NCBI GenBank assembly: GCA_030038275.1
Contig: JASHPG010000236.1
Location: 1 to 43,035 of the forward strand
Length of the DNA: 43,035 nucleotides
DNA from: Candidatus Acidiferrales bacterium
GTDB lineage: Bacteria; Acidobacteriota; Terriglobia; Acidiferrales; UBA7541
Reading direction: 5' to 3'
How positions within the stretch are numbered: the first letter of the stretch is position 1; every line of letters starts with the position of its first letter. The notes under the pieces were generated by a model. That model was not told the DNA's origin. It made no database searches and saw only the letters and a list, made by a program, of their open reading frames with translations. Shown in pieces: positions 5,059 to 39,370 of this stretch. The translations under genes were made by a program, and so were the position numbers.

Positions 5059-6107
5059 GCATTTCCGTTCGCGGAGTCTCAAAAAAATTTGGCTCCTTCT
5101 CGGCGCTCGACCGGATCGATCTGGAGATTCCCGCCGGCGAACTCGTGGCGCTGCTTGGCCCGTCCGGCTCCGGCAAAACCACGCTGCTGCGCATAATAGC
5201 GGGCTTGGAGTTCGCCGATTCAGGCGCGGTCGAGTTCGAAGGCCAGGACATTTCCTCTCGCAGCGCGCGCGACCGGCGCGTCGGATTTGTTTTTCAACAT
5301 TTCGCCTTGTTTCGCTACATGACTGTCTTCGAAAATATTGCGTTCGGCCTGCGCGTGCGTCCCCGGCGCATCCGCCCCTCGCGCGAAGAGATTCGCGCCA
5401 AAGTGCACGAACTGCTGCGGCTCATTCAGCTCGAAAATCAGGCGCAGCGGTATCCATCCCAATTGTCCGGGGGGCAGCGGCAGCGTGTCGCCCTCGCTCG
5501 CGCCCTGGCGGTTGAGCCCAGCGTGCTCCTTCTTGATGAGCCCTTTGGCGCGCTTGACGCCAAGGTTCGCCTCGAACTTCGCCGTTGGCTTCGCGACTTG
5601 CACGACAAAGTGCAAATCACCAGTGTGTTTGTCACGCACGATCAAGACGAAGCCCTCGAAGTCGCTGACCGCGTCGCCGTCATGAACGAGGGCCGCATCG
5701 AGCAGTTCGGCACGCCAGCCGACGTTTACCACAGCCCCGCGACTTCCTTCGTTTACAATTTTCTTGGCAACGTGAATTTGTTCCGAGGACGCGTGGAGAA
5801 TGGCGCCACGTTCATTCACTCCTCGCCCACCGGAAGCATCATTTTCGTGCGGCCGCACTTCCTCGACGTGAGCCGGCAACCGAATGGCTCGTCACACTTT
5901 CGCGCCGTCACGAAACACATCCACACCGCCGGCCCGCTAGTGAAGATCGAAGCTGTAACCGAATGGGGCGCGCCAGTTCATATTGAAATGTCGCAGGAAC
6001 GGTTCGGTGCTTTAGGGCTTGTGCCTGATGAAACGGTATTCGTCACTCCGAAGGAATCAGCTGTATTCAGGGCGGATTCTCATCCGGCTGCGGCGGACAA
6101 GTCCTGA
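5055..6107 (+). CDS. cysA: sulfate ABC transporter ATP-binding protein CysA
   Basis: A 350-residue ATPase. The start is ATG 5055, which overlaps the cysW stop and is preceded by GGAGGAG; an earlier in-frame start would lie inside cysW. Walker A is GPSGSGKT (35-42), the Q-loop Gln is at 81, the ABC signature LSGGQ at 137-141, Walker B LLLDEP at 158-163 and the switch His at 195 in VTHDQDEA. Residues from about 235 form a C-terminal regulatory/TOBE-like region, as is usual for CysA. It hydrolyses ATP to power sulfate import through CysT/CysW. It is the last gene of the operon; no clear terminator is seen before 6182. Confidence 0.94.
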
Positions 6108-6181
6108 TTAACCGGAGTGTCGTGCCGTTCTCCACGGAGAGAAAAGTTACTCGAATATGATTTTCAGGAACGGATTACCGG

Positions 6182-6925
6182 CTAACCTTGGCCATTCTTT
6201 TCCGAATCGCGCTCGCCGTCCGGTGATGCGCCGTTCTGATGTGCTGCCCGCCAAATCGCGCTCTTCAGGTTGATGCTTCGCTTGGTCACGTATGCGTGTT
6301 CGAACATCAGCGCCGCCGCGCGCTGGCCTTCGCCGTTCTCCAGCGCCTGCACGATCGAATGGTGCTGCCGGTGTGAGAACCACAGCATGTCGTACATCCG
6401 CTTCAGGTCAACTCGGTCGAACGCAATCGCGTGCGCCGCGGCGAACGGAACGCGATCGTTCCGCTCCAGCGCGTCCGCGATCACTTTGCTGCCCGATCCT
6501 TGCACGATGATCGCGTGGAACTGCTTGTTCATATCGCCGTAGCGTTCTTCGTCGGACTCGACCAGTTGGCGCTTGGCGAAAATGTCGTCGCCTTCACGCA
6601 AGCATTCGTAGAGCGCCTGCATTACGCGCCGCGCCGCTCCTTGCTCTGCCAGGATGCGCGCCGCGAGTCCCTCCAGCACGCCACGTACGTCGATCGCGTC
6701 CATGATTTCCTGCGGTGTGAACTCGCGCACCACGAAACCGCGCGTGTCCAGTTGCGTGAGCATCCCTTCCTGCGCCAGGATCGGCAGCGCCTCGCGCACA
6801 GGAGTCCTCGAAACGCCCAGTGCCGAAGCCAGTTCCACCTCCCGTACCCGCTGCCCCGGAGCGAGCTGCCCGTGCAGGATCATCTCTCGGAGGCGTACGA
6901 TTACTCGCGAATTTTTACCGGCCAT
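6182..6925 (-). CDS. GntR-family regulator with FCD domain
   Basis: A 247-residue transcription regulator. Residues 8-67 form the winged helix-turn-helix of the GntR family (GQRVREVELASALGVSRTPV then REALPILAQEGML). Residues about 75-205 form the helical FCD ligand-binding domain of the FadR subfamily, with candidate metal-binding histidines in MNKQFHAIIV, HRQHHSIVQAL and FEHAY. These regulators usually respond to small organic acids. It is divergent from the VOC dioxygenase-like gene at 7236, with about 310 bases between the two starts, so it may control that gene and itself. The C-terminal 30 residues are polar and probably disordered. The ligand cannot be read from sequence. Confidence 0.88.
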   Translation of the reverse strand: MAGKNSRVIVRLREMILHGQLAPGQRVREVELASALGVSRTPVREALPILAQEGMLTQLDTRGFVVREFTPQEIMDAIDVRGVLEGLAARILAEQGAARRVMQALYECLREGDDIFAKRQLVESDEERYGDMNKQFHAIIVQGSGSKVIADALERNDRVPFAAAHAIAFDRVDLKRMYDMLWFSHRQHHSIVQALENGEGQRAAALMFEHAYVTKRSINLKSAIWRAAHQNGASPDGERDSEKNGQG

Positions 6926-27674: not shown

Positions 27675-29039
27675 ATGGTACTTGATTCAAATAAAGACTC
27701 GTGCTCCAACACAGCGGATATCGGCGACGTCACTCAAGGACCCGGCGAGGAGATCAAATACTACAGCTCACAACAAGAAGACCGGACCAAGAGATTCCTA
27801 CAGGCCGCATCGGATTGGCAGAGAAGATATTTACAGGGAGTCGAAGCTCGACTGATTTTCTGGCTGGGCGTAATCGCCATTATCGTTGCGGCCTCTTCAG
27901 GAATGTTCGGGCTCAGCGATGGACTGCTAATTGGTGCAGTCCTCGTTGCTCTTGTCGTCGCTGGCCGTACCTATTTTTGGACGCGGTTGATCCGGAAGCG
28001 GATGGATCACGTGGATAGGTTCCGGCAGCGTTTCCGTGAACTACTGGACAGTGTCAACGATATCCGGTGGCAGACCCAGCCTGAGGAAACTGTCCGTGAG
28101 GACAAGGCTTTTCTGGAAAAATATACGGATAGCATCCTTTTCCCATCGACCGTTTCAGACGCCAGAAGCGCCGAGGTTCCGTCGGATCGCGAGCTTGCGC
28201 ATATCGAGACTCTGTATCTGGAGTATCGCTCCTGGCGACACCTCCACTCGTGGCCCGATCCCAACGATCCAAACTCGAACACCAGGTTAAAGTGTGAATT
28301 GTGCATGGCGGCGGATCGCGTCAAGAAGAACATCGAAGGTGCGATATCCGCGTATGAGGCGGCAATCACATCCGCACGCCAAGAGTTTGTGGCGCGAATT
28401 GATGGCGCCAATCCCGAGGGAGCGCTGGATGCGAACACATTCTTGGATGAGTACAGTAAGCGCAGAGCACTCTATTACGTACCAGAGGACCTAGCCGACC
28501 AAGACGAGAAGCTTCTGGCTTGGCTGAACTCATTGTGTGACAAGCAATGCTGGACATTCGAGGATGCGGACAAGATACGCGACCTTTGTAAGATCAGAGC
28601 AAAGGGACAGAGCCATTGGCTCGAATCCTACGAACAAAGAGATCGTTTCGATCACCTTGTCCTCAAGATGACGCAAGAGATGACCAACGCCGCGAATCGG
28701 TTCGGACTGGCCGATACCTGGGACTGGTACGATTCCGCAAAACACAAGCTTTCCGTAAACGACGCGGCCATAAAGCACATTCGCCGCATTTTGCAACGGT
28801 CTAATCCGGGAGCGATGTTCCGTGAGTTGGAGGAAGAAAGCTGGCACAAACCGTGGTGGGGCGACGTTATCCTGCCGGGTCTAACAAAGTGGGGGTACGA
28901 TGGCGGTCTTCTGGCGAAGGAGTGCAGGAAAGCCCGACACAGGATGTTGAAGGAACGAGATGAGGCTGATCGACTGCGAGATGGACAGTTGCGTGCGGTG
29001 CAGGCGTTTCTTCGTACGGAGAGACGTGCGAGTGAATGA
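27675..29039 (+). CDS. unknown membrane-anchored protein, first gene of a two-gene cassette
   Basis: A 454-residue protein I do not recognise. ATG 27675 has GGGAGG upstream. Two close hydrophobic segments lie at about 62-78 (FWLGVIAIIVAASSGMFG) and 80-97 (LLIGAVLVALVVAG), forming a hairpin. The rest is charged and mostly helical, with Cys residues in CELCMAADRVKK, and should be cytoplasmic. The gene is visibly less GC-rich than its neighbours and uses more A/T-ending codons, which suggests transfer. Its stop overlaps the next start in an ATGA, so the two products are made together. The layout of a small membrane hairpin with a large cytoplasmic part resembles defence effectors, but no known domain is seen. 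Confidence 0.7.
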   Translation: MVLDSNKDSCSNTADIGDVTQGPGEEIKYYSSQQEDRTKRFLQAASDWQRRYLQGVEARLIFWLGVIAIIVAASSGMFGLSDGLLIGAVLVALVVAGRTYFWTRLIRKRMDHVDRFRQRFRELLDSVNDIRWQTQPEETVREDKAFLEKYTDSILFPSTVSDARSAEVPSDRELAHIETLYLEYRSWRHLHSWPDPNDPNSNTRLKCELCMAADRVKKNIEGAISAYEAAITSARQEFVARIDGANPEGALDANTFLDEYSKRRALYYVPEDLADQDEKLLAWLNSLCDKQCWTFEDADKIRDLCKIRAKGQSHWLESYEQRDRFDHLVLKMTQEMTNAANRFGLADTWDWYDSAKHKLSVNDAAIKHIRRILQRSNPGAMFRELEEESWHKPWWGDVILPGLTKWGYDGGLLAKECRKARHRMLKERDEADRLRDGQLRAVQAFLRTERRASE

Positions 29040-29626
29040 TTCAGGTTAGTCAACGAGAACCATTCGAGCGGAGCGGCATTGGGGAGGAATCCAATCGAGG
29101 CACGAACGTGGGCGGCGATTACTTGATCGACAAAATCTACGGCCTTGTGCTTGCGGTGGGTGGGTATTTCGGCAGGGTCTTTCAGGAGCGGATCAGTAAG
29201 GGCCGGATGCGCAAGCAGCTTTACCAGGAAATCTCCAACAACTATTACGCTGCGCACATTCGCATAGCCACGGCTACTTCACTCTCCGGTTTAGCGCAGG
29301 GCGCACCGCTGCGCTTCACGGACAAGCTGGACATATCGTTTCACGTTTACGAGCACAACAAAGTTAAGGGCTCTGTCTTCGATCTAAGGGAAGGAGAGGC
29401 AATCAGCAGGATTTACGATAAATTTCACCGAATCAAAGAAGAGCATCCGGGCTATCCCCACGTGCGCGCCAAAGAAGCATTGGCCGAAGTAGACGAGCGA
29501 CTTCTCGACGGCAGCCTGGACGCAAAGCTCTATCGCAAGGCTTCTTCCCCAAACGCCTGGCGGTTCATGGATGACCTTCTATCCGGCAGGCGAGCAAGCT
29601 GGACGAAGAGCTTGAATCCGATTTGA
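29036..29626 (+). CDS. unknown protein, second gene of the two-gene cassette
   Basis: A 196-residue protein coupled to the first by the ATGA overlap. The N-terminus (about 30-45, IYGLVLAVGGYFGRVFQ) is moderately hydrophobic and may be a membrane anchor; the rest is soluble and helical (FHRIKEEHPGYPHVRAKEAL). The first 24 residues look weakly coding, so an internal start (GTG near 29108) is possible. No family is recognised. It shares the AT-richer composition of its partner. After it come about 240 bases without a gene. Confidence 0.65.
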   Translation: MIQVSQREPFERSGIGEESNRGTNVGGDYLIDKIYGLVLAVGGYFGRVFQERISKGRMRKQLYQEISNNYYAAHIRIATATSLSGLAQGAPLRFTDKLDISFHVYEHNKVKGSVFDLREGEAISRIYDKFHRIKEEHPGYPHVRAKEALAEVDERLLDGSLDAKLYRKASSPNAWRFMDDLLSGRRASWTKSLNPI

Positions 29627-31930: not shown

Positions 31931-33247
31931 CTAACCGATCGGCACTTCCTCGAGCGATTTATCGAGGATGCGGACGGCTTCGTCCACGTCAGTCTTGGAA
32001 ATGTTGAGCGGCGGGGCGAGGCGGATCACGTTTCCGTAAAGGCCGCCCTTGCCGATCAGCAAGCCATTCGCGCGAGCGCGCTCCATCAATTCGTTGGTCT
32101 CGGAGGGCGCGGGTTCTTTCGTTTGGCGGTTGCGAACGAGTTCCAGGCCCTGCATCAGTCCCATGCCGCGCACGTCGCCGATCAGCGGGAATTTCTGCTG
32201 CAATTCTTCGAGCCGTTTCCGGAAATAACCGCCGACAACGTGGCAGTTGTCGAGGAGGTTTTCTTCTTCGATCACATCGATGACGGCGCGCGCGGCCACC
32301 GACGTGACCGGATTGCCGCCGAACGTGGAAATCGTGAGGCCCTGAAATTTTCCGGCGAGTTCCGAGGTGGTGATCGTGGCGCCGACGGGAACGCCGTTGG
32401 CCATGCTCTTCGCGCAGGTGATCACGTCCGGCACGACTTCCCACTGCTCGATGCCGAACCATTTGCGTCCCGTGCGGCCGAACCCCGTCTGTACTTCGTC
32501 GGAGATGAAGAGCCCGCCGTAATTTTTCACGATGCGGAAAACAATCTTGAAATATTCAGGCGGCGGAGTGATGAACCCGCCGACGCCTTGGATGGGCTCG
32601 GCGATGAACGCGGCGATCGAGCCGCTAGTCGAAGTCTGGATCACATTTTCAACGTCGTTCGCGCAAGCGACGCCGCACTCCGGATATTTCAGGTGCAGTG
32701 GGCAGCGGTAGCAATAGGGATTCAGCGCGTGCGCGATGCCCACGCTAATCACGCCGGATTTGCGCCAAGGCGCTTGCCCCGTAACGCTTTTCGCCAGCGC
32801 CGACGCGCCGGAATAGGAGTGGCGCAGAGCGACCACGTCGTAGCTTCGGCCGGCCATGCGCGCGAGCAAAATCGCGGCTTCGTTCGCCTCGGTGCCGGAG
32901 TTCGTGAAAAAACTTTTTTGCAGCGTGCCGGGAGTGATTTGCGCCAGCTTTTCAGCCAGATCGACGATCACTTCGTTGGGGTACAGCGTTGACGTGTGCT
33001 GGAGTTTATCGGCCTGCGCTTTGATTTCGGACGTGACTTTCGGATTGCAGTGGCCCACGCCGATGGTGAGGATTCCGCCGAAGAAATCGAGGTACTGCTT
33101 GCCCTCAACGTCCCAAACGTATTGCATCGAGGCGCGCTCGGCGACGAGCGGCTCGCGGTAGTAGTTCGTCACCGCCGGCCAAAGGTATTCGCGGTGCTTG
33201 CGGATTACCTCTTCGCTGCGAGTTGGAGTGGTTTTGACCGGCGCCAT
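31931..33247 (-). CDS. class-III aminotransferase (AGXT2-like)
   Basis: A 438-residue PLP enzyme. ATG 33247 is chosen because AGGAAAG lies five bases upstream; an earlier start at 33304 lacks one. PLP lysine is Lys280 in ITCAKSMANG, with Asp250 in FISDEVQTGFGRTG, and the SGTEANEAA phosphate-binding loop near 117-125. The sequence resembles alanine-glyoxylate and beta-amino-acid aminotransferases. A cluster of four Cys (179, 182, 191, 195 in CYRCPLHLKYPECGVAC) is notable and could bind metal. It transfers an amino group between an amino acid and an oxo acid; the exact substrates cannot be read. Confidence 0.88.
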   Translation of the reverse strand: MAPVKTTPTRSEEVIRKHREYLWPAVTNYYREPLVAERASMQYVWDVEGKQYLDFFGGILTIGVGHCNPKVTSEIKAQADKLQHTSTLYPNEVIVDLAEKLAQITPGTLQKSFFTNSGTEANEAAILLARMAGRSYDVVALRHSYSGASALAKSVTGQAPWRKSGVISVGIAHALNPYCYRCPLHLKYPECGVACANDVENVIQTSTSGSIAAFIAEPIQGVGGFITPPPEYFKIVFRIVKNYGGLFISDEVQTGFGRTGRKWFGIEQWEVVPDVITCAKSMANGVPVGATITTSELAGKFQGLTISTFGGNPVTSVAARAVIDVIEEENLLDNCHVVGGYFRKRLEELQQKFPLIGDVRGMGLMQGLELVRNRQTKEPAPSETNELMERARANGLLIGKGGLYGNVIRLAPPLNISKTDVDEAVRILDKSLEEVPIG

Positions 33248-33446
33248 CGATACTTTCCTAGCTGCTCCTAGCGGCGCTCGATTGGGGAATTGTACCGAAC
33301 GCACCGGCTGGCAGTGAAAATTCCCGCCCGAGAACGCGCAACTGACGTGCGGAGAAGTGTCTCGGGTAGAGCGGTATTCGACTCTTTGTTTTCAACAATT
33401 TAGAGGCGATTCTACTCGTTCGGTGTCTCGGGTAGCCGCCCCAAAA

Positions 33447-33490
33447 CGTTCTAGAAGTTAGAAGTTGGAGGTTAGAGGCCAGAAGAGAAA
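33447..33490. repeat. degenerate CTTCTAACCTCTAACTTCTAG-type repeat, copy 2 (inverted)
   Basis: GTTCTAGAAGTTAGAAGTTG and following bases are related, in the opposite direction, to the repeat at 29841-29876. Units are imperfect. Confidence 0.55.
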
Positions 33491-33833
33491 GCGCTCTGCA
33501 AGAACACTCGCGAGAAAATTGCGCGCGAGAAGATGCACCGCGACGTTCCGCCCTTGATAGGAGCCGGGCATTTGTTTTCAACAAGTTAGGCGTGACAAAG
33601 GTCGATCGGCGGTTCCGCCCTAAAGTGATGCTTGAGCGCGAACAAAAGGCGAATGCTTCTCCGGTTCTGTCCGGCGAGATTCGGAACGCTGAGCGCGAGA
33701 TGTCCGCATCGACGTTGTTGCCGGGAACTGACTTCGAATTGTGCGCGACCAGGTTCATTCGCCTCCCGGGCAAAAAAGCGCCCCGACTGACGATAACAAG
33801 ATTGCCCCGCAAACGCTATCGGGTAAATACACT

Positions 33834-33847
33834 CCGCAGATCTGCGG
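33834..33847. repeat. perfect palindrome CCGCAGATCTGCGG
   Basis: A 14-base perfect palindrome in the gene-free stretch. It is followed by mixed sequence with no T-run, so it is not a clear terminator. Confidence 0.5.
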
Positions 33848-33972
33848 GGTCTAGTACTCTTACTCTAAAGCGGGACGATCCGGAACTGCACGGCTGAACT
33901 GCTCGGCGGGCCTTGGGAGATTGCCGGTTAACTTTCCCGGCAGCGGATATTTTCGTGGCGCGGAACAGCCCC

Positions 33973-33991
33973 ACGCTCGCAAAACGAGCGT
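33973..33991. repeat. hairpin in the gene-free stretch
   Basis: ACGCTCG (33973-33979), loop CAAAA, CGAGCGT (33985-33991): seven perfect pairs. No T-run follows on either strand. It may be part of a dispersed intergenic element. Confidence 0.5.
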
Positions 33992-34216
33992 TGGGCACGC
34001 GCAACACCAAATCAAAACCACGCCTAAGCGCGCACCTCCATAACCCGAAGGCGCGGCACCCACACAATTTTTAGTCGGCGGCATTATGAAACGTGTTGTG
34101 TAGTCAGCCGTCTCCCCCGTCAATTTGAAACACTCAGTGGATGCGCCAAACCATGAACCGCCTTCACACTCATCGAGATCGTGCGATAATGACGCCCGGT
34201 CTACCAACCACTTCTC

Positions 34217-34873
34217 ATGCATCTTCAACAGACGAAGAGGGCCAGCATAGCCACCGGAGGACCGCAATACTATTTTCACGATCTCAGCGGCCCGGTGCAA
34301 ACGTATTTGCGATCACAAGGCGCTGTTCGGGTGGCGCTTGTGACCCCATATGGGGCGACAAAACCAGATTTTTTCGCGGTTGGAAAAGATCACAAGTTGG
34401 TGTCCGACAACGGGAAGGTTACGGCGGGCAAGGTCGGCCATGATCGGATTCAGCAAGGCAAGGCAGTCGGCAGCATCGGAGAGGCAATACGGGATTGGTA
34501 TCGATTGGACACGGGGAATTTTGAACGCATTGATGTGGACGTTCAGATCGTCGAAGACATTTTCTACGTTCGCCCGCTTCGCTGTAAGTATGCGTCGAGT
34601 GCTAGAACGACTGATTTACCTGTAGTCGAACGGCCACTAACATTTACCCTCGATTACCAAAGTCCTTTTTGGCGGAAACAAATCGAATCAGTTGAGCGCA
34701 AATTGGCAATGTGGTCCCTTGAGGAAATCTGCCGCGTCGCAAAAGATCACCGGCCCGGCTCGAAACTCCCACATATCCAAGAGACGGATATCTTGAGAGC
34801 GTCCGGGCCCTTGAAGCATCTAGGATTGACACTGGGCGGCTTCGTCGGGGAAAGGATACGACTGTTTCAGTAA
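34217..34873 (+). CDS. probable type II restriction endonuclease, N-terminal part, frameshifted
   Basis: The frame encodes 218 residues, ending LTLGGFVGERIRLFQ. It is soluble, with mixed alpha/beta character (AVRVALVTPYGATKPDFFAV, IDVDVQIVEDIFYVRPLR). I do not recognise a family from this part alone. If one base of the GGGG at 34847-34850 is skipped, the protein goes on in another frame (KGYDCFSKFEFNGFPPYQVP) with a PD-(D/E)XK-like motif. The last residues after the G-run (ERIRLFQ) are therefore probably not native. No strong binding site precedes ATG 34217. The neighbouring DNA methyltransferase supports a restriction role. Inference. Confidence 0.6.
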   Translation: MHLQQTKRASIATGGPQYYFHDLSGPVQTYLRSQGAVRVALVTPYGATKPDFFAVGKDHKLVSDNGKVTAGKVGHDRIQQGKAVGSIGEAIRDWYRLDTGNFERIDVDVQIVEDIFYVRPLRCKYASSARTTDLPVVERPLTFTLDYQSPFWRKQIESVERKLAMWSLEEICRVAKDHRPGSKLPHIQETDILRASGPLKHLGLTLGGFVGERIRLFQ

Positions 34874-34904
34874 ATTTGAGTTCAACGGATTTCCACCTTA
34901 TCAG

Positions 34905-35090
34905 GTGCCCGTAGAGCTCAAGCGAGACAGCACCGGCTTCACGTACCAGCAGCGCAAGTACGGGAAAGATGAATTGTCCCGAGCCGTCGTCCTGTGCGCG
35001 ACGCACGGACACAAACAGGTGCCGGTTAATATCGATGTCATCGAGCTAGACGCGCTCTGCCAATATCGTGACAGGCTGAAAGCGGGATGA
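34905..35090 (+). CDS. probable restriction endonuclease, C-terminal catalytic fragment
   Basis: As a separate frame this is 61 residues from GTG 34905, but it is open back to about 34830 without a start codon and reads like protein (FEFNGFPPYQVPVELKR). The motif D-x(17)-E-L-K, with the Asp in GYD, fits the PD-(D/E)XK nuclease core, and the next segment FTYQQRKYGKDELSRAVVLC looks like the strand and helix after it. The stop overlaps the methyltransferase ATG in an ATGA. It is best read as the end of the gene at 34217, detached by a one-base shift. If not, it is a small coupled protein of unknown role. Confidence 0.5.
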   Translation: MPVELKRDSTGFTYQQRKYGKDELSRAVVLCATHGHKQVPVNIDVIELDALCQYRDRLKAG

Positions 35091-36607
35091 AATCTTACGA
35101 ACAGATCCGAGCCATAGGCGCCCCGATAGCCGCTGACCGCCAAGGCGCCAAACGACATTACGGCGTCCATCCTTACTTCACGCGGCGACCATTCAACGTG
35201 GTGCGGCGGTACATCGAACACTACAGCCGCGAGGGAGATCACGTACTCGACCCGTTCGGCGGTTCCGGCGTGACTGCCATCGAAGCGTTCTTATCGAACC
35301 GCACCGGCATACAGAACGACATCAATCCACTCGCAAATTTCATCGCACGAGGCATCGCCGATCTGTCGAAAGGCCGGATTTGCGATTATGTGGCTGCACT
35401 CAAGGCAATCGCTGATCGTTGTGAGCGGCGCGTTCTCGCACTCGATGAGGCAGACGATACAGCCATTACACGACTTCTTAAACGGCTACCACTGCCCGCG
35501 AATGTGCGTCTGCCTGCAAATGCAGATGTAGAGCGGTACTACGATCTTTTCTCACCGCGCCAACTTGCCGCGTTAGCGATCATCCGCGAAGCTATCGACA
35601 ATATTTCTGACCGATACGCTCGGAATGCGCTGCGTCTGGCATGGTCTGCGACACTGGCCAAGATCAACCATACTTTTCTGTCGGCAGAGGGCCGAGCCGA
35701 GTCCCGCGGAGGTTCGAGCATCTTTAGCATCTATCGATACAAGATTGCGGCTAAACCAGTTGAACTCCCACCTTGGACTACTTTCTACGAGAGAGCGGAA
35801 AATGTGCTGGCGGCAAAGGACGAGATCGATAGTGAGATTGATTATCGGAGAAGAACCGGCGGCTTCTCGGGAAAGTTCGAAACGCACGAACTTGATATCG
35901 AAGATTTACGGAGCCAGATCGCACCCGTGGATTACATCTTCACTGACCCACCCTACGGCGGACACATCTCCTACCTCGATCTATCGACGCTTTGGAATGC
36001 GTGGAATGGCACCATGCCATCGCGGAGTAACCGCGAAAGCGAACTGATTGTTGGTGGCGATCTGAATCTCTCAGAGGATATTTACCTCACCCGCTTACGT
36101 GAAAGCATTCGAACGTGCTTCGCACTATTGAAACCGAAGCGTTGGCTATCGGTGGTATTTCAGCATTGGTCCACAGCTTATTTTGATGCCATCCTAACCG
36201 CAGCGGCGGAAGCTGGTGGTGACCTGCGGGCTGCGATTTCGCAAGTTGGCGACCCAATATGGTCCATGCACAAGAAGAAAAATAAGCAGTCCGTGTTGGC
36301 TGGCGAACTAATTTTAACGTTCCTTAAAACAGGCAGGGTGAAGACGCTCGACACCAGTGAACACTTTGACGTTGAGAAGGCAGTCGCTGGCATCCTCGAT
36401 CAGACGCCAAGTGAGATCGTCTATGGCGAATACCTGCTCAACCGTATCGTCATTGACGCTTGGGAGTCAGGTGCATTAGGTTCGCTGGACATGGACCGGA
36501 CGGAATTCGTGGACATGATGGAAAGGAAAGATTGGTCCTATGATGAAAAGGCGCATCAGTGGCGGCATGCTCGTGTCGCGTCCGTGCCTTTGCTCGGGCG
36601 TGGATAG
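35087..36607 (+). CDS. site-specific DNA methyltransferase (N4/N6 type)
   Basis: A 506-residue methyltransferase. A motif X-like HPYFTRRPFNVVRRYI (28-43) precedes the SAM-binding motif I DPFGGSGVTAIEA (55-67), and the catalytic motif IV DPPYGG is at 287-292. The order X, I, long insert, IV suggests an alpha-like class with the target-recognition region in the insert. DPPY fits adenine-N6 or cytosine-N4 methylation. Both key motifs are intact, so it should be active. It is translationally coupled (ATGA) to the nuclease fragment before it, as in type II restriction-modification loci. The gene is less GC-rich than the surrounding core genes, a sign of transfer. Recognition sequence unknown. Confidence 0.87.
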   Translation: MKSYEQIRAIGAPIAADRQGAKRHYGVHPYFTRRPFNVVRRYIEHYSREGDHVLDPFGGSGVTAIEAFLSNRTGIQNDINPLANFIARGIADLSKGRICDYVAALKAIADRCERRVLALDEADDTAITRLLKRLPLPANVRLPANADVERYYDLFSPRQLAALAIIREAIDNISDRYARNALRLAWSATLAKINHTFLSAEGRAESRGGSSIFSIYRYKIAAKPVELPPWTTFYERAENVLAAKDEIDSEIDYRRRTGGFSGKFETHELDIEDLRSQIAPVDYIFTDPPYGGHISYLDLSTLWNAWNGTMPSRSNRESELIVGGDLNLSEDIYLTRLRESIRTCFALLKPKRWLSVVFQHWSTAYFDAILTAAAEAGGDLRAAISQVGDPIWSMHKKKNKQSVLAGELILTFLKTGRVKTLDTSEHFDVEKAVAGILDQTPSEIVYGEYLLNRIVIDAWESGALGSLDMDRTEFVDMMERKDWSYDEKAHQWRHARVASVPLLGRG

Positions 36608-37039
36608 AACCTAGATCAAGCAAACCGCAGTCAAGATTATTTCGCTGATTCTGTATTTGCCGGGCGGCGCAGCCGGTTAACATCTCCAATTGACGCTGCG
36701 CCGCTGACCACCGCACAACTCGTTTCTTTTCCTACGAACTTTGAAGGATAAGAACTGCTGCCGACCTGAAGGTCGCCACTACACAAGCCAATGCGTTCGT
36801 GCGGACATGTAAGATTCGGACTCGGGATGACACGTCCGGCGAAAAGCAACGGAATCGTGAACGCGATAGCGATTGATTGACAGCTCCCCTGACCGGACAT
36901 ACATTCGGCCTGCATTCGGTCCGTCGGCCTCGGCCAGGCGCAGCGCCACGGCGCGAGGTACGACACGTGCAAAAGGCACTTGACGCGAATTCAGATTAGG
37001 GTGGCAGCCGGGGATATATGGCGGTCGGCCTGGGTGCTC
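36608..37039. other. intergenic stretch before the tandem repeats
   Basis: About 430 bases without a convincing gene. It contains the small palindromic unit at 36760-36777 and no clear promoter; TTGACG at 36980 lacks a -10 at normal distance. Short frames here look random. Confidence 0.5.
36760..36777. repeat. GCCGACCTGAAGGTCGCC element, copy 1
   Basis: An 18-base unit with CGACC and GGTCG arms around TGAA. An identical copy lies at 38324-38341, on the other side of the gene at 37160. It looks like a REP-type intergenic element. Confidence 0.6.
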
Positions 37040-37144
37040 GGGCAAGCCCTTCATACGTCAGGGCAAGCCCTTTGCACGTCAGGGCAAGCCCTTTGCACGT
37101 CAGGACAGGCCCTTCCTGTGTCAGGGCAAGGCCTTCCTGTGTGA
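37040..37144. repeat. five tandem copies of a 21-bp unit
   Basis: Units start at 37040, 37061, 37082, 37103 and 37124, each 21 bases (consensus GGGCAAGCCCTTTGCACGTC plus A). Units 2 and 3 are identical; units 4 and 5 share CCTTCCTGTGT. A sixth partial unit (GGCAAGGAGG) carries the ribosome binding site of the gene at 37160. Confidence 0.92.
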
Positions 37145-37159
37145 GGCAAGGAGGAGCGA

Positions 37160-38077
37160 ATGGCTGAGCGACTAAGCAAGCATTTCGGGCGATGCGTTGT
37201 TGTGGCGCTCGCGGAGGCAACATGCTGCGCGTGTGTGCTGGCGCTGTTCGCTTCTGTCACGCCAGCTCAAAGTTGGCTGGACTTCAAGCGTCCGGCGCCC
37301 ACCGCTGCGGACTGGGATGCCATCGCCAAATTGCCTGACTTCACGGGCGTGTGGGAAGAGCCCCTGGGGTCCACTCACCTGGTTGTGTCACCCGAAGAGG
37401 CTAAACAGGGTCACGCGAAAACGACGGACCGCTCTAAATTTCCCGCTTCGTCGGTGCAGCCAACGCTGCCTCTCACGCCCGCATGGGCCGCCAAAGTGAA
37501 ACAGTTGGAAGCCCACGCCGCGCAGGACAACGTGCAGTCGAACTGCGTGCCGTACGGCATGCCAACGATCATGACCATGCCGTATCCCTACGAGTTCTTG
37601 CTGACTCCCGGACAGGTGACCATCATCGGCGAGGAAGAGCGGATGATTCGCCATATCTACACCGACGGTCGCCCGCTTCCGAAAGACCCCGATCCGACCT
37701 TTTGGGGCACGTCGGTGGGACATTGGGAAGGCGACACGCTGGTGGCCGAAACCGTGGGCTTCTCTCCGCAAACGCTGATGATATCGACTCCGCCTGTGAC
37801 GGGCCACGACATGGTGGCAGTGCCGCACAGCAACAACATGAAAATCATCGAGCGGTTTCGGCTTCTCGATCCCGACACCATGCAGGTCAAGACCACGATT
37901 ATCGATCCGGTGGCTTTGACTCGCCCGTACACGACAACACGAATCATGCACCGTTACCGGAATTGGACCATCGATGAATACATCTGCCAGGAGAACAACC
38001 GAAACTCCGTAACCAGCAGCGGCAAAGCTGAGGTAGATACCATCCCTCCCGTTCCACCGGAACTGAGTTCTAAGTAG
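37160..38077 (+). CDS. exported protein of unknown function
   Basis: A 305-residue protein. AAGGAGG lies five bases before ATG 37160. A signal peptide covers residues 1-36 (VVVALAEATCCACVLALFAS). The mature part opens with LPDFTGVWEEP and continues with NCVPYGMPTIMTMPYPYEFL, RMIRHIYTDGRPLP, GTSVGHWEGDTLVAETVGFS and EYICQENNRN, a set of motifs I recall from a widespread but uncharacterised exported family in Acidobacteria and Proteobacteria. Length is normal for that group. The unusual feature is the 21-bp tandem repeat array directly in front of it, which may affect its expression. Confidence 0.77.
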   Translation: MAERLSKHFGRCVVVALAEATCCACVLALFASVTPAQSWLDFKRPAPTAADWDAIAKLPDFTGVWEEPLGSTHLVVSPEEAKQGHAKTTDRSKFPASSVQPTLPLTPAWAAKVKQLEAHAAQDNVQSNCVPYGMPTIMTMPYPYEFLLTPGQVTIIGEEERMIRHIYTDGRPLPKDPDPTFWGTSVGHWEGDTLVAETVGFSPQTLMISTPPVTGHDMVAVPHSNNMKIIERFRLLDPDTMQVKTTIIDPVALTRPYTTTRIMHRYRNWTIDEYICQENNRNSVTSSGKAEVDTIPPVPPELSSK

Positions 38078-38238
38078 GGCCGTCGCGAACTAATACGTGG
38101 AAGTCTGGCGATGACGGGCGGCGCTCTACTTTTCCGATTCGCCGTCCCGCTCCGCTCGCTCGAATTCCTCAGAGTATTCGCAATGCGACGGACTCGGGAC
38201 GAGGGCGAGCACGCCGCGAACCGGCCGGTCAGTCGCAT

Positions 38239-38257
38239 GCCGGGCATGAAGCCCGGC
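38239..38257. repeat. hairpin GCCGGGC-ATGAA-GCCCGGC
   Basis: Seven perfect pairs around a five-base loop, followed by GCTACAGG. It has the same design (short GC-rich arms around a GAA-containing loop) as the 18-base units at 36760 and 38324. Confidence 0.6.
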
Positions 38258-38323
38258 GCTACAGGGAACCAAGTCAGCCCAAACGCGAAGGTTTTGGGAG
38301 ACCTGCCGTGCACTCCGAAAGGC

Positions 38324-38341
38324 GCCGACCTGAAGGTCGCC
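38324..38341. repeat. GCCGACCTGAAGGTCGCC element, copy 2
   Basis: Identical over 18 bases to the unit at 36760-36777 and in the same direction. Confidence 0.6.
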
Positions 38342-38498
38342 GCGACACTAGGAAGAGGCCCGCGCTAAATCCGGACCTTCGAACGCCAAAATCCGAACCC
38401 TTCGGAGATTTCGCTCAGGATGCGGCACCCGTAAGAGCTAAACCGGCGGCGGGCATCAACGACACATAAACGGCGGGTGCGAATTGAAGAAGTTCCCG

Positions 38499-38504
38499 TA
38501 TAAT
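38499..38504 (+). promoter_or_regulatory. consensus -10 TATAAT just before the YihY-like gene
   Basis: TATAAT ends 11 bases before ATG 38516, giving a leader of only four or five bases. No good -35 is seen at normal distance. Confidence 0.5.
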
Positions 38505-38515
38505 CGCGCGAAAAG

Positions 38516-39370
38516 ATGGCAGCCTTCCTGAAGAACCTTGCCGGAGCTCTTCGGCGGCTTTTCCCCGACTGTATAACCTTGGGCCAGGCGATCGCGTTCA
38601 ACATGTTCTTCGCTTTTTTCCCCCTGCTTCTGTTCGCACTGGGGCTGCTTGGCGGAACTTCACTTTTTCACGACGCGTTGCGCGAGATTCCGCGCGGGCT
38701 CGACTTGATCCTCCCTCCGGGAAGCTCGGAAGTGCTGAGCGACTATTTCGTGCGGCGGGCGGCCCATCCGGAGCGGTGGATATGGCTGGGATTGGGCGGG
38801 ACGCTGATCGCCGGGACGCAGGTAATGGTCGGATACATGGAGGGCTTCCGGTCGATTGAAGGCGATTTGACCCGGCCGGGATATTGGCGCAGGCAGATTC
38901 GCGCGCTGGTGCTGGTTTGCGTGACGATCGTGCCGATGCTGACGGTTGTGGTGCTGACCGTGTTTGGCAAGCAGACGCGGCAATGGTTGATGGTGCGCAC
39001 GCGGTCGGTGCTGCTGACGCACGAACTGGAGCTGGCGTTTTACGCGGCGGTGGTGTTCGTGCTTGCGACGGGAGTTTTGGTGCTGCTGTATCGACTTGGC
39101 CGGCCGGGACATCCGGGATTGCGATGTCTGCTGCCGGGAACGTTTGTGGCGACCGTGCTCTGGTGGGCGGCAGACATCGGATTCGGCCTGTACGTGAGGA
39201 AGGTGCCCTACGACGCGGTTTACCGCGGGCTGGCATCGGCGATCGGAATGATGCTGTGGATGTTCTTGACGGCGTTGATTGTGCTACTGGGAGCAGCCTA
39301 CAACGCGGAAGTGCGCGAGAATGGCGGCGGGCGGCGCAGGAGGCGGGGGAAGGTTAGCGTGGCTGAGTAG
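38516..39370 (+). CDS. YihY/BrkB-family inner-membrane protein
   Basis: A 284-residue protein with six hydrophobic segments and the family signature near the first (LGQAIAFNMFFAFFPLLLFA), a re-entrant-like GGTLIAGTQVMVGYMEGF, and the closing YRGLASAIGMMLWMFLTALI, LLGAAYNAEV. These were once called ribonuclease BN, but that activity belongs to another gene; the true function is probably transport or envelope-related and is not established. The C-terminus is basic (GGGRRRRRGK). A TATAAT sits 11 bases before the ATG with no ribosome binding site between, so translation may be nearly leaderless. Confidence 0.85.
   Translation: MAAFLKNLAGALRRLFPDCITLGQAIAFNMFFAFFPLLLFALGLLGGTSLFHDALREIPRGLDLILPPGSSEVLSDYFVRRAAHPERWIWLGLGGTLIAGTQVMVGYMEGFRSIEGDLTRPGYWRRQIRALVLVCVTIVPMLTVVVLTVFGKQTRQWLMVRTRSVLLTHELELAFYAAVVFVLATGVLVLLYRLGRPGHPGLRCLLPGTFVATVLWWAADIGFGLYVRKVPYDAVYRGLASAIGMMLWMFLTALIVLLGAAYNAEVRENGGGRRRRRGKVSVAE

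Follow-up and report, generated by a model that had tools for sequence, protein, structure and literature searches.

Genetic Organization of the Locus

The window analyzed here (the whole stretch of 43,035 nucleotides) is an entire contig from the 240-contig draft genome of a soil-type acidobacterium, and carries on its + strand a putative restriction nuclease gene followed directly by a gene for an amino-methyltransferase. Of the two frames that make up the nuclease gene, the first (34217–34873, + strand) extends from an ATG at 34217 to a TAA at 34871–34873 and encodes 218 amino acids, equivalent to residues 1 to ~211 of the joined reading described below, with relatives matching from residue 1. 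According to fold searches, it encodes a B3-like N-terminal domain (about residues 1–140) and the helices that precede the catalytic core. The frame is lost at a GGGG run (34847–34850, + strand), where the conserved sequence ...FVG/KGYDC... places the frame change. A one-base shift within this run joins ...LGGFVG to KGYDC..., and the second frame (34851–35090, + strand), which encodes the predicted C-terminal PD-(D/E)XK core, then remains open up to a TGA at 35088–35090. The early stop shortly after the G-run and the one-base join open to 35090, both proposed in the original prediction, are borne out by the sequence; the joined protein exists as proposed as well, except that it has 290 residues and not 291.

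In the joined reading, 17 residues lie between Asp215 (codon 34860–34862) and Glu233-Leu-Lys235 (Glu233 at 34914–34916 and Lys235 at 34920–34922, all on the + strand), which is the spacing that had been predicted. Two further claims also held, namely that the nuclease TGA overlaps the methyltransferase ATG at 35087 as ATGA, and that the second frame has no ATG of its own. Its sole alternative start is a GTG at 34905–34907, downstream of the catalytic Asp codon, so that a product initiated there would miss the Asp. The nuclease frame is therefore not intact in this genome, being broken at 34847–34850, and a genome search found no second nuclease copy in the draft.

The methyltransferase gene (35087–36607, + strand; 506 aa) is intact, and was matched by Pfam N6_N4_Mtase (4e-16) and by PADLOC MTase_II. 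Its product has a DPFGGSG motif I near the N-terminus and a TDPPYGG motif IV later in the sequence. The nuclease and the methyltransferase are thus encoded by separate, adjoining genes, as for a type II restriction-modification (R-M) system. Wherever a contig covers both genes, the pair recurs with its order and strand unchanged, and the nuclease stop and methyltransferase start overlap as ATGA in several loci. We looked in the relatives for a third conserved gene beside the pair and found none.

The pair resides in an inserted stretch (33305–38515) between a class III aminotransferase gene (31931–33304) and a BrkB/YihY-like gene (38516–39370), and in 12 genomes from the window's genus these flanking genes sit directly next to each other. 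The GC3 of the pair is 0.56–0.65, vs. 0.71–0.80 in nearby genes. Both the adjacency of the flanks in these genomes and the lower GC3 point to acquisition of the pair by horizontal transfer. The insert also contains about five tandem copies of a 21-base unit (GGGCAAGCCCTTTGCACGTCA-like) at 37040–37144, just upstream of a gene at 37160–38077 that has three relatives elsewhere in the genome and others in the genus, and has no Pfam match. Elsewhere in the window, two genes at 27675–29626 (454 and 196 aa) overlap in ATGA; neither has a Pfam match, and the 454-aa product has a likely membrane stretch near its N-terminus.

Distribution of the Nuclease Family and Its Ancestral Form

We scanned one genome per species, and found 20 loci with relatives of the nuclease in at least six phyla, the drafts being labelled Acidobacteria, Xanthobacteraceae, Ignavibacteriae, Zixibacteria, Chloroflexi, Deltaproteobacteria, Verrucomicrobia, and Nitrospinota. 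The family is rare, with presence in 2 of 396 genomes of the window's phylum and in 1/400, 3/388, and 2/392 genomes of three other groups. Among the 95 genomes of the window's own order, only the window carries it. No relatives of the nuclease were found in the viral contigs, phage records, and plasmids searched.

Unbroken copies in related genomes, which had been suggested as a check on the joined reading, were indeed found, 11 in number. Relatives that cover the gene match residues 1 to about 286 of the joined reading in one frame (E-values down to 2e-154), arguing that this reading is not a product of chance, and the second part of the nuclease alone gives matches at 1.3e-51 in a genome-wide search. 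The two-frame arrangement of the window, whose conservation as separate frames would have spoken against a broken gene, was found in none of the relatives. Because the unbroken relatives align along its whole length, the joined 290-residue reading represents, on sequence comparison, the ancestral form of the protein. We also considered that the two halves might be separate genes and rejected this reading, since the unbroken relatives cover both halves in one protein, and no start precedes the catalytic Asp codon in the second half.

Predicted Domains of the Nuclease

No family in Pfam, NCBIfam, PADLOC, or PHROG covers the nuclease, whether searched with each half, with the joined reading, or with the 11 intact relatives, and a family profile search of the PDB found nothing. 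Across the 11 unbroken copies and the joined reading of the window, Asp215 and Glu233-x-Lys235 do not vary; they form a PD-(D/E)XK motif (D215, E233-x-K235), with model strands at residues 217–222 and 230–239. The intact L010 protein was modelled with a pLDDT of 84 and a pTM of 0.82, and places the Glu and Lys on a long core strand. A Foldseek search with this model gave no match at E ≤ 0.001. Structural comparison of its residues 158–294 returned a match list dominated by PD-(D/E)XK enzymes, with low scores; the best match was SduA (Z 5.1, rmsd 4.0 over 130 residues), and the others included Shedu, Nt.BspD6I, NucC, Ecl18kI, AspBHI, EcoT38I, HindIII, EcoO109I, and BsaWI.

The N-terminal domain, modelled alone (pLDDT 84), best matched the NgoAVII R-protein (Z 4.6, rmsd 3.5 over 98 residues), followed by LlaJI.R1 and FUS3 (the three best Z being 4.6, 4.1, and 4.1) and then by TEM1, VAL1, EcoRII-N, and BfiI-C. 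The matches listed from NgoAVII to BfiI-C are without exception B3-type domains, from either restriction enzymes or plant factors, each with Z <5, and rows for MlaD and glutamine synthetase score about as high as the lower B3 rows. The nuclease thus probably consists of an N-terminal B3-like DNA-binding domain and a C-terminal PD-(D/E)XK core; each match is weak, and this model-based assignment is probable given the gene context and the agreement of the match lists with one another.

Recurrent Loss of the Nuclease Frame

In the lesion count, for which the paired methyltransferase was the control, we included 20 loci, the window among them, in which the pair is present and the state of the nuclease can be judged. 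Nine of these have a broken nuclease, each at a different place; seven carry a frameshift, one a nonsense codon, and one an IS insertion. Besides the frameshift in the window, there are frameshifts near residues 43 (L009), 62 (L019), 190 (L020), 29 (L023), 56 (L024), and 116 (L025). The nonsense codon is at residue 18 in L008, and the IS-like insertion, near residue 37 in L027/L029, shows up as two contig ends whose terminal inverted repeats match. This insertion shows the decay to be real in at least that case. The methyltransferase is broken in two loci (L013 and L017) and unbroken in 18; it is incomplete at a contig end in L009, and lies on a separate contig for L025. The nuclease accordingly holds 9 of the 11 lesions, vs. 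a share of 0.37 expected by length (p = 0.003), and the comparison by locus (9/20 vs. 2/20 broken) gives a one-sided p of 0.015, with loci that are partly related by descent and lesions that each fall at a different place. Broken and unbroken copies can be close relatives, as in L020 (broken) and L010 (unbroken), which are 92.6% identical over 5 kb.

One further locus, L043 (G1032 C38), contains at ~5429–6403 a remnant of the whole cassette, in which a nuclease with a large internal deletion leads into the C-terminal part of the methyltransferase. In L013 (4443–5800) an intact nuclease lies beside a methyltransferase broken by a deletion with frameshift, and in L017 (5891–7400) beside one broken by a nonsense codon. 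With an active nuclease, loss of the methyltransferase would be expected to kill the cell, and the methyltransferase lesions in these two loci would either be errors or indicate a nuclease that is weak or silent there. Some lesions in the family may therefore be consensus errors.

The break in the window appears from its sequence to be recent, or not fixed, because the part behind it shows no decay: the window and L009, its nearest relative, differ by a non-synonymous distance of 0.089 before the break and 0.095 after it. Synonymous sites are saturated in this comparison, as they are in most pairs, so that a low level of non-synonymous change can be stated and a dN/dS value cannot. A search of this kind sees recognizable copies only, and is thus biased toward recent breaks. 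In several comparisons (L014/L015, L010/L020, and the window against L008–L010 and L019), the nuclease is less divergent at non-synonymous sites than its methyltransferase; the reverse is often said of restriction enzymes.

Possible Explanations for the Broken Frame

The combined evidence makes it likely that the locus is a transferred type II-like R-M cassette in which the nuclease was recently frameshifted in the GGGG run, leaving a functional-looking, solitary methyltransferase. A broken endonuclease beside an intact methyltransferase had been proposed from the sequence alone, and the unbroken copies, the invariant core residues, and the resemblance of the modelled fold to restriction nucleases support it. 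The extra base may instead be an assembly or sequencing error, with the gene intact in the living organism, as the break sits in a homopolymer of a 240-contig draft, five of the family's seven frameshifts involve a run of at least four identical bases, and the methyltransferase lesions in L013 and L017 hint at the presence of some errors. However, four consecutive G are usually read without difficulty, and IS insertions and nonsense codons are untypical of consensus errors. With both methyltransferase lesions (2 in 29.7 kb) taken as errors, their rate would account for about 1.2 of the nine nuclease lesions, an estimate from few events with an upper bound of about 4 of 9. An error in the G-run, already raised in the original prediction, is therefore an unlikely source of the frameshift.

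The same prediction left room for a phase-variable gene, in which the length of the run would change within the population and only some cells would cut DNA. Such restriction systems are known elsewhere, and recent lesions in a gene that is otherwise strongly constrained would fit one. This part of the prediction did not hold up as the broken gene did: the run has only four bases, no conserved run occupies this position in 13 relatives, and the remaining broken copies have their lesions at eight other sites. We saw no long simple repeat in the nuclease gene, and regard phase variation as very unlikely. Programmed +1 frameshifting, by which the full protein would be made from the two frames, would account for the conserved residues kept in both, but the relatives read through this position in one frame and none shifts there. 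Further, known +1 shifts (prfB-type sites) use a stop or rare-codon site, and there is none at this position, which leaves programmed frameshifting extremely improbable. It is also conceivable, if doubtful, that some force regularly favors switching off this nuclease (e.g., self-damage when methylation lags), although it is conserved across phyla under strong purifying selection. Populations would then contain intact alleles alongside broken ones, and the cassette would cycle from an armed state to one of methylation only and back.

For the decaying R-M cassette that we favor, the pairing of the genes suggests that the nuclease would cut unmethylated target DNA and the coupled amino-methyltransferase would protect it, with the B3-like domain predicted to recognize the target. 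By truncating the nuclease ahead of its catalytic residues, the frameshift would abolish cutting in the strain of the window. The solitary methyltransferase left behind should go on marking DNA without restriction. Loss of the nuclease with the methyltransferase kept is the safe direction of decay, and has probably been taken independently in many carriers of the cassette.

Comparison with Known Restriction-Modification Systems

Similarly to what is predicted for the window nuclease, the type IIE enzyme EcoRII has an N-terminal B3-like domain and a C-terminal PD-(D/E)XK domain (EcoRII-N match, Z 2.9). However, the family profile search of the PDB returned no EcoRII chain, and the partner of EcoRII is a cytosine-C5 methyltransferase, whereas the partner here is an amino-methyltransferase of the N6_N4_Mtase type. 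R.NgoAVII/R.CglI and BfiI would share the predicted B3-like DNA-binding domain, for which they include the best N-terminal match (Z 4.6), but their B3 domain is C-terminal and is combined with a phospholipase D-type nuclease domain. NgoAVII and CglI also require a helicase-like subunit (PMC4267653), whereas the cassette family of the window has no conserved third gene.

R-M systems are often lost (PMC6471742, PMC4687349), many corrupted R-M genes are present in REBASE (PMC4687349), and solitary methyltransferases adjoining degraded nuclease genes have been reported (PMC6471742). The window shows the same end state of an intact methyltransferase and a broken nuclease. Unlike in those cases, the nuclease family here has no library model, and its lesions are recent and differ in place from lineage to lineage.

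Implications

Decay of restriction genes is itself an already known process, and the break in the window is nothing unusual in kind; the nuclease family it affects is one absent from the reference libraries searched. This family, which occurs in at least six phyla and has no model in Pfam, NCBIfam, PADLOC, or PHROG, would extend the known restriction enzymes by one that combines B3 and PD-(D/E)XK domains. Its independent recent breaks beside an intact methyltransferase provide a clean comparative case of restriction decay via loss of the nuclease, with broken and unbroken copies from related genomes (L020 and L010) at hand for comparison.
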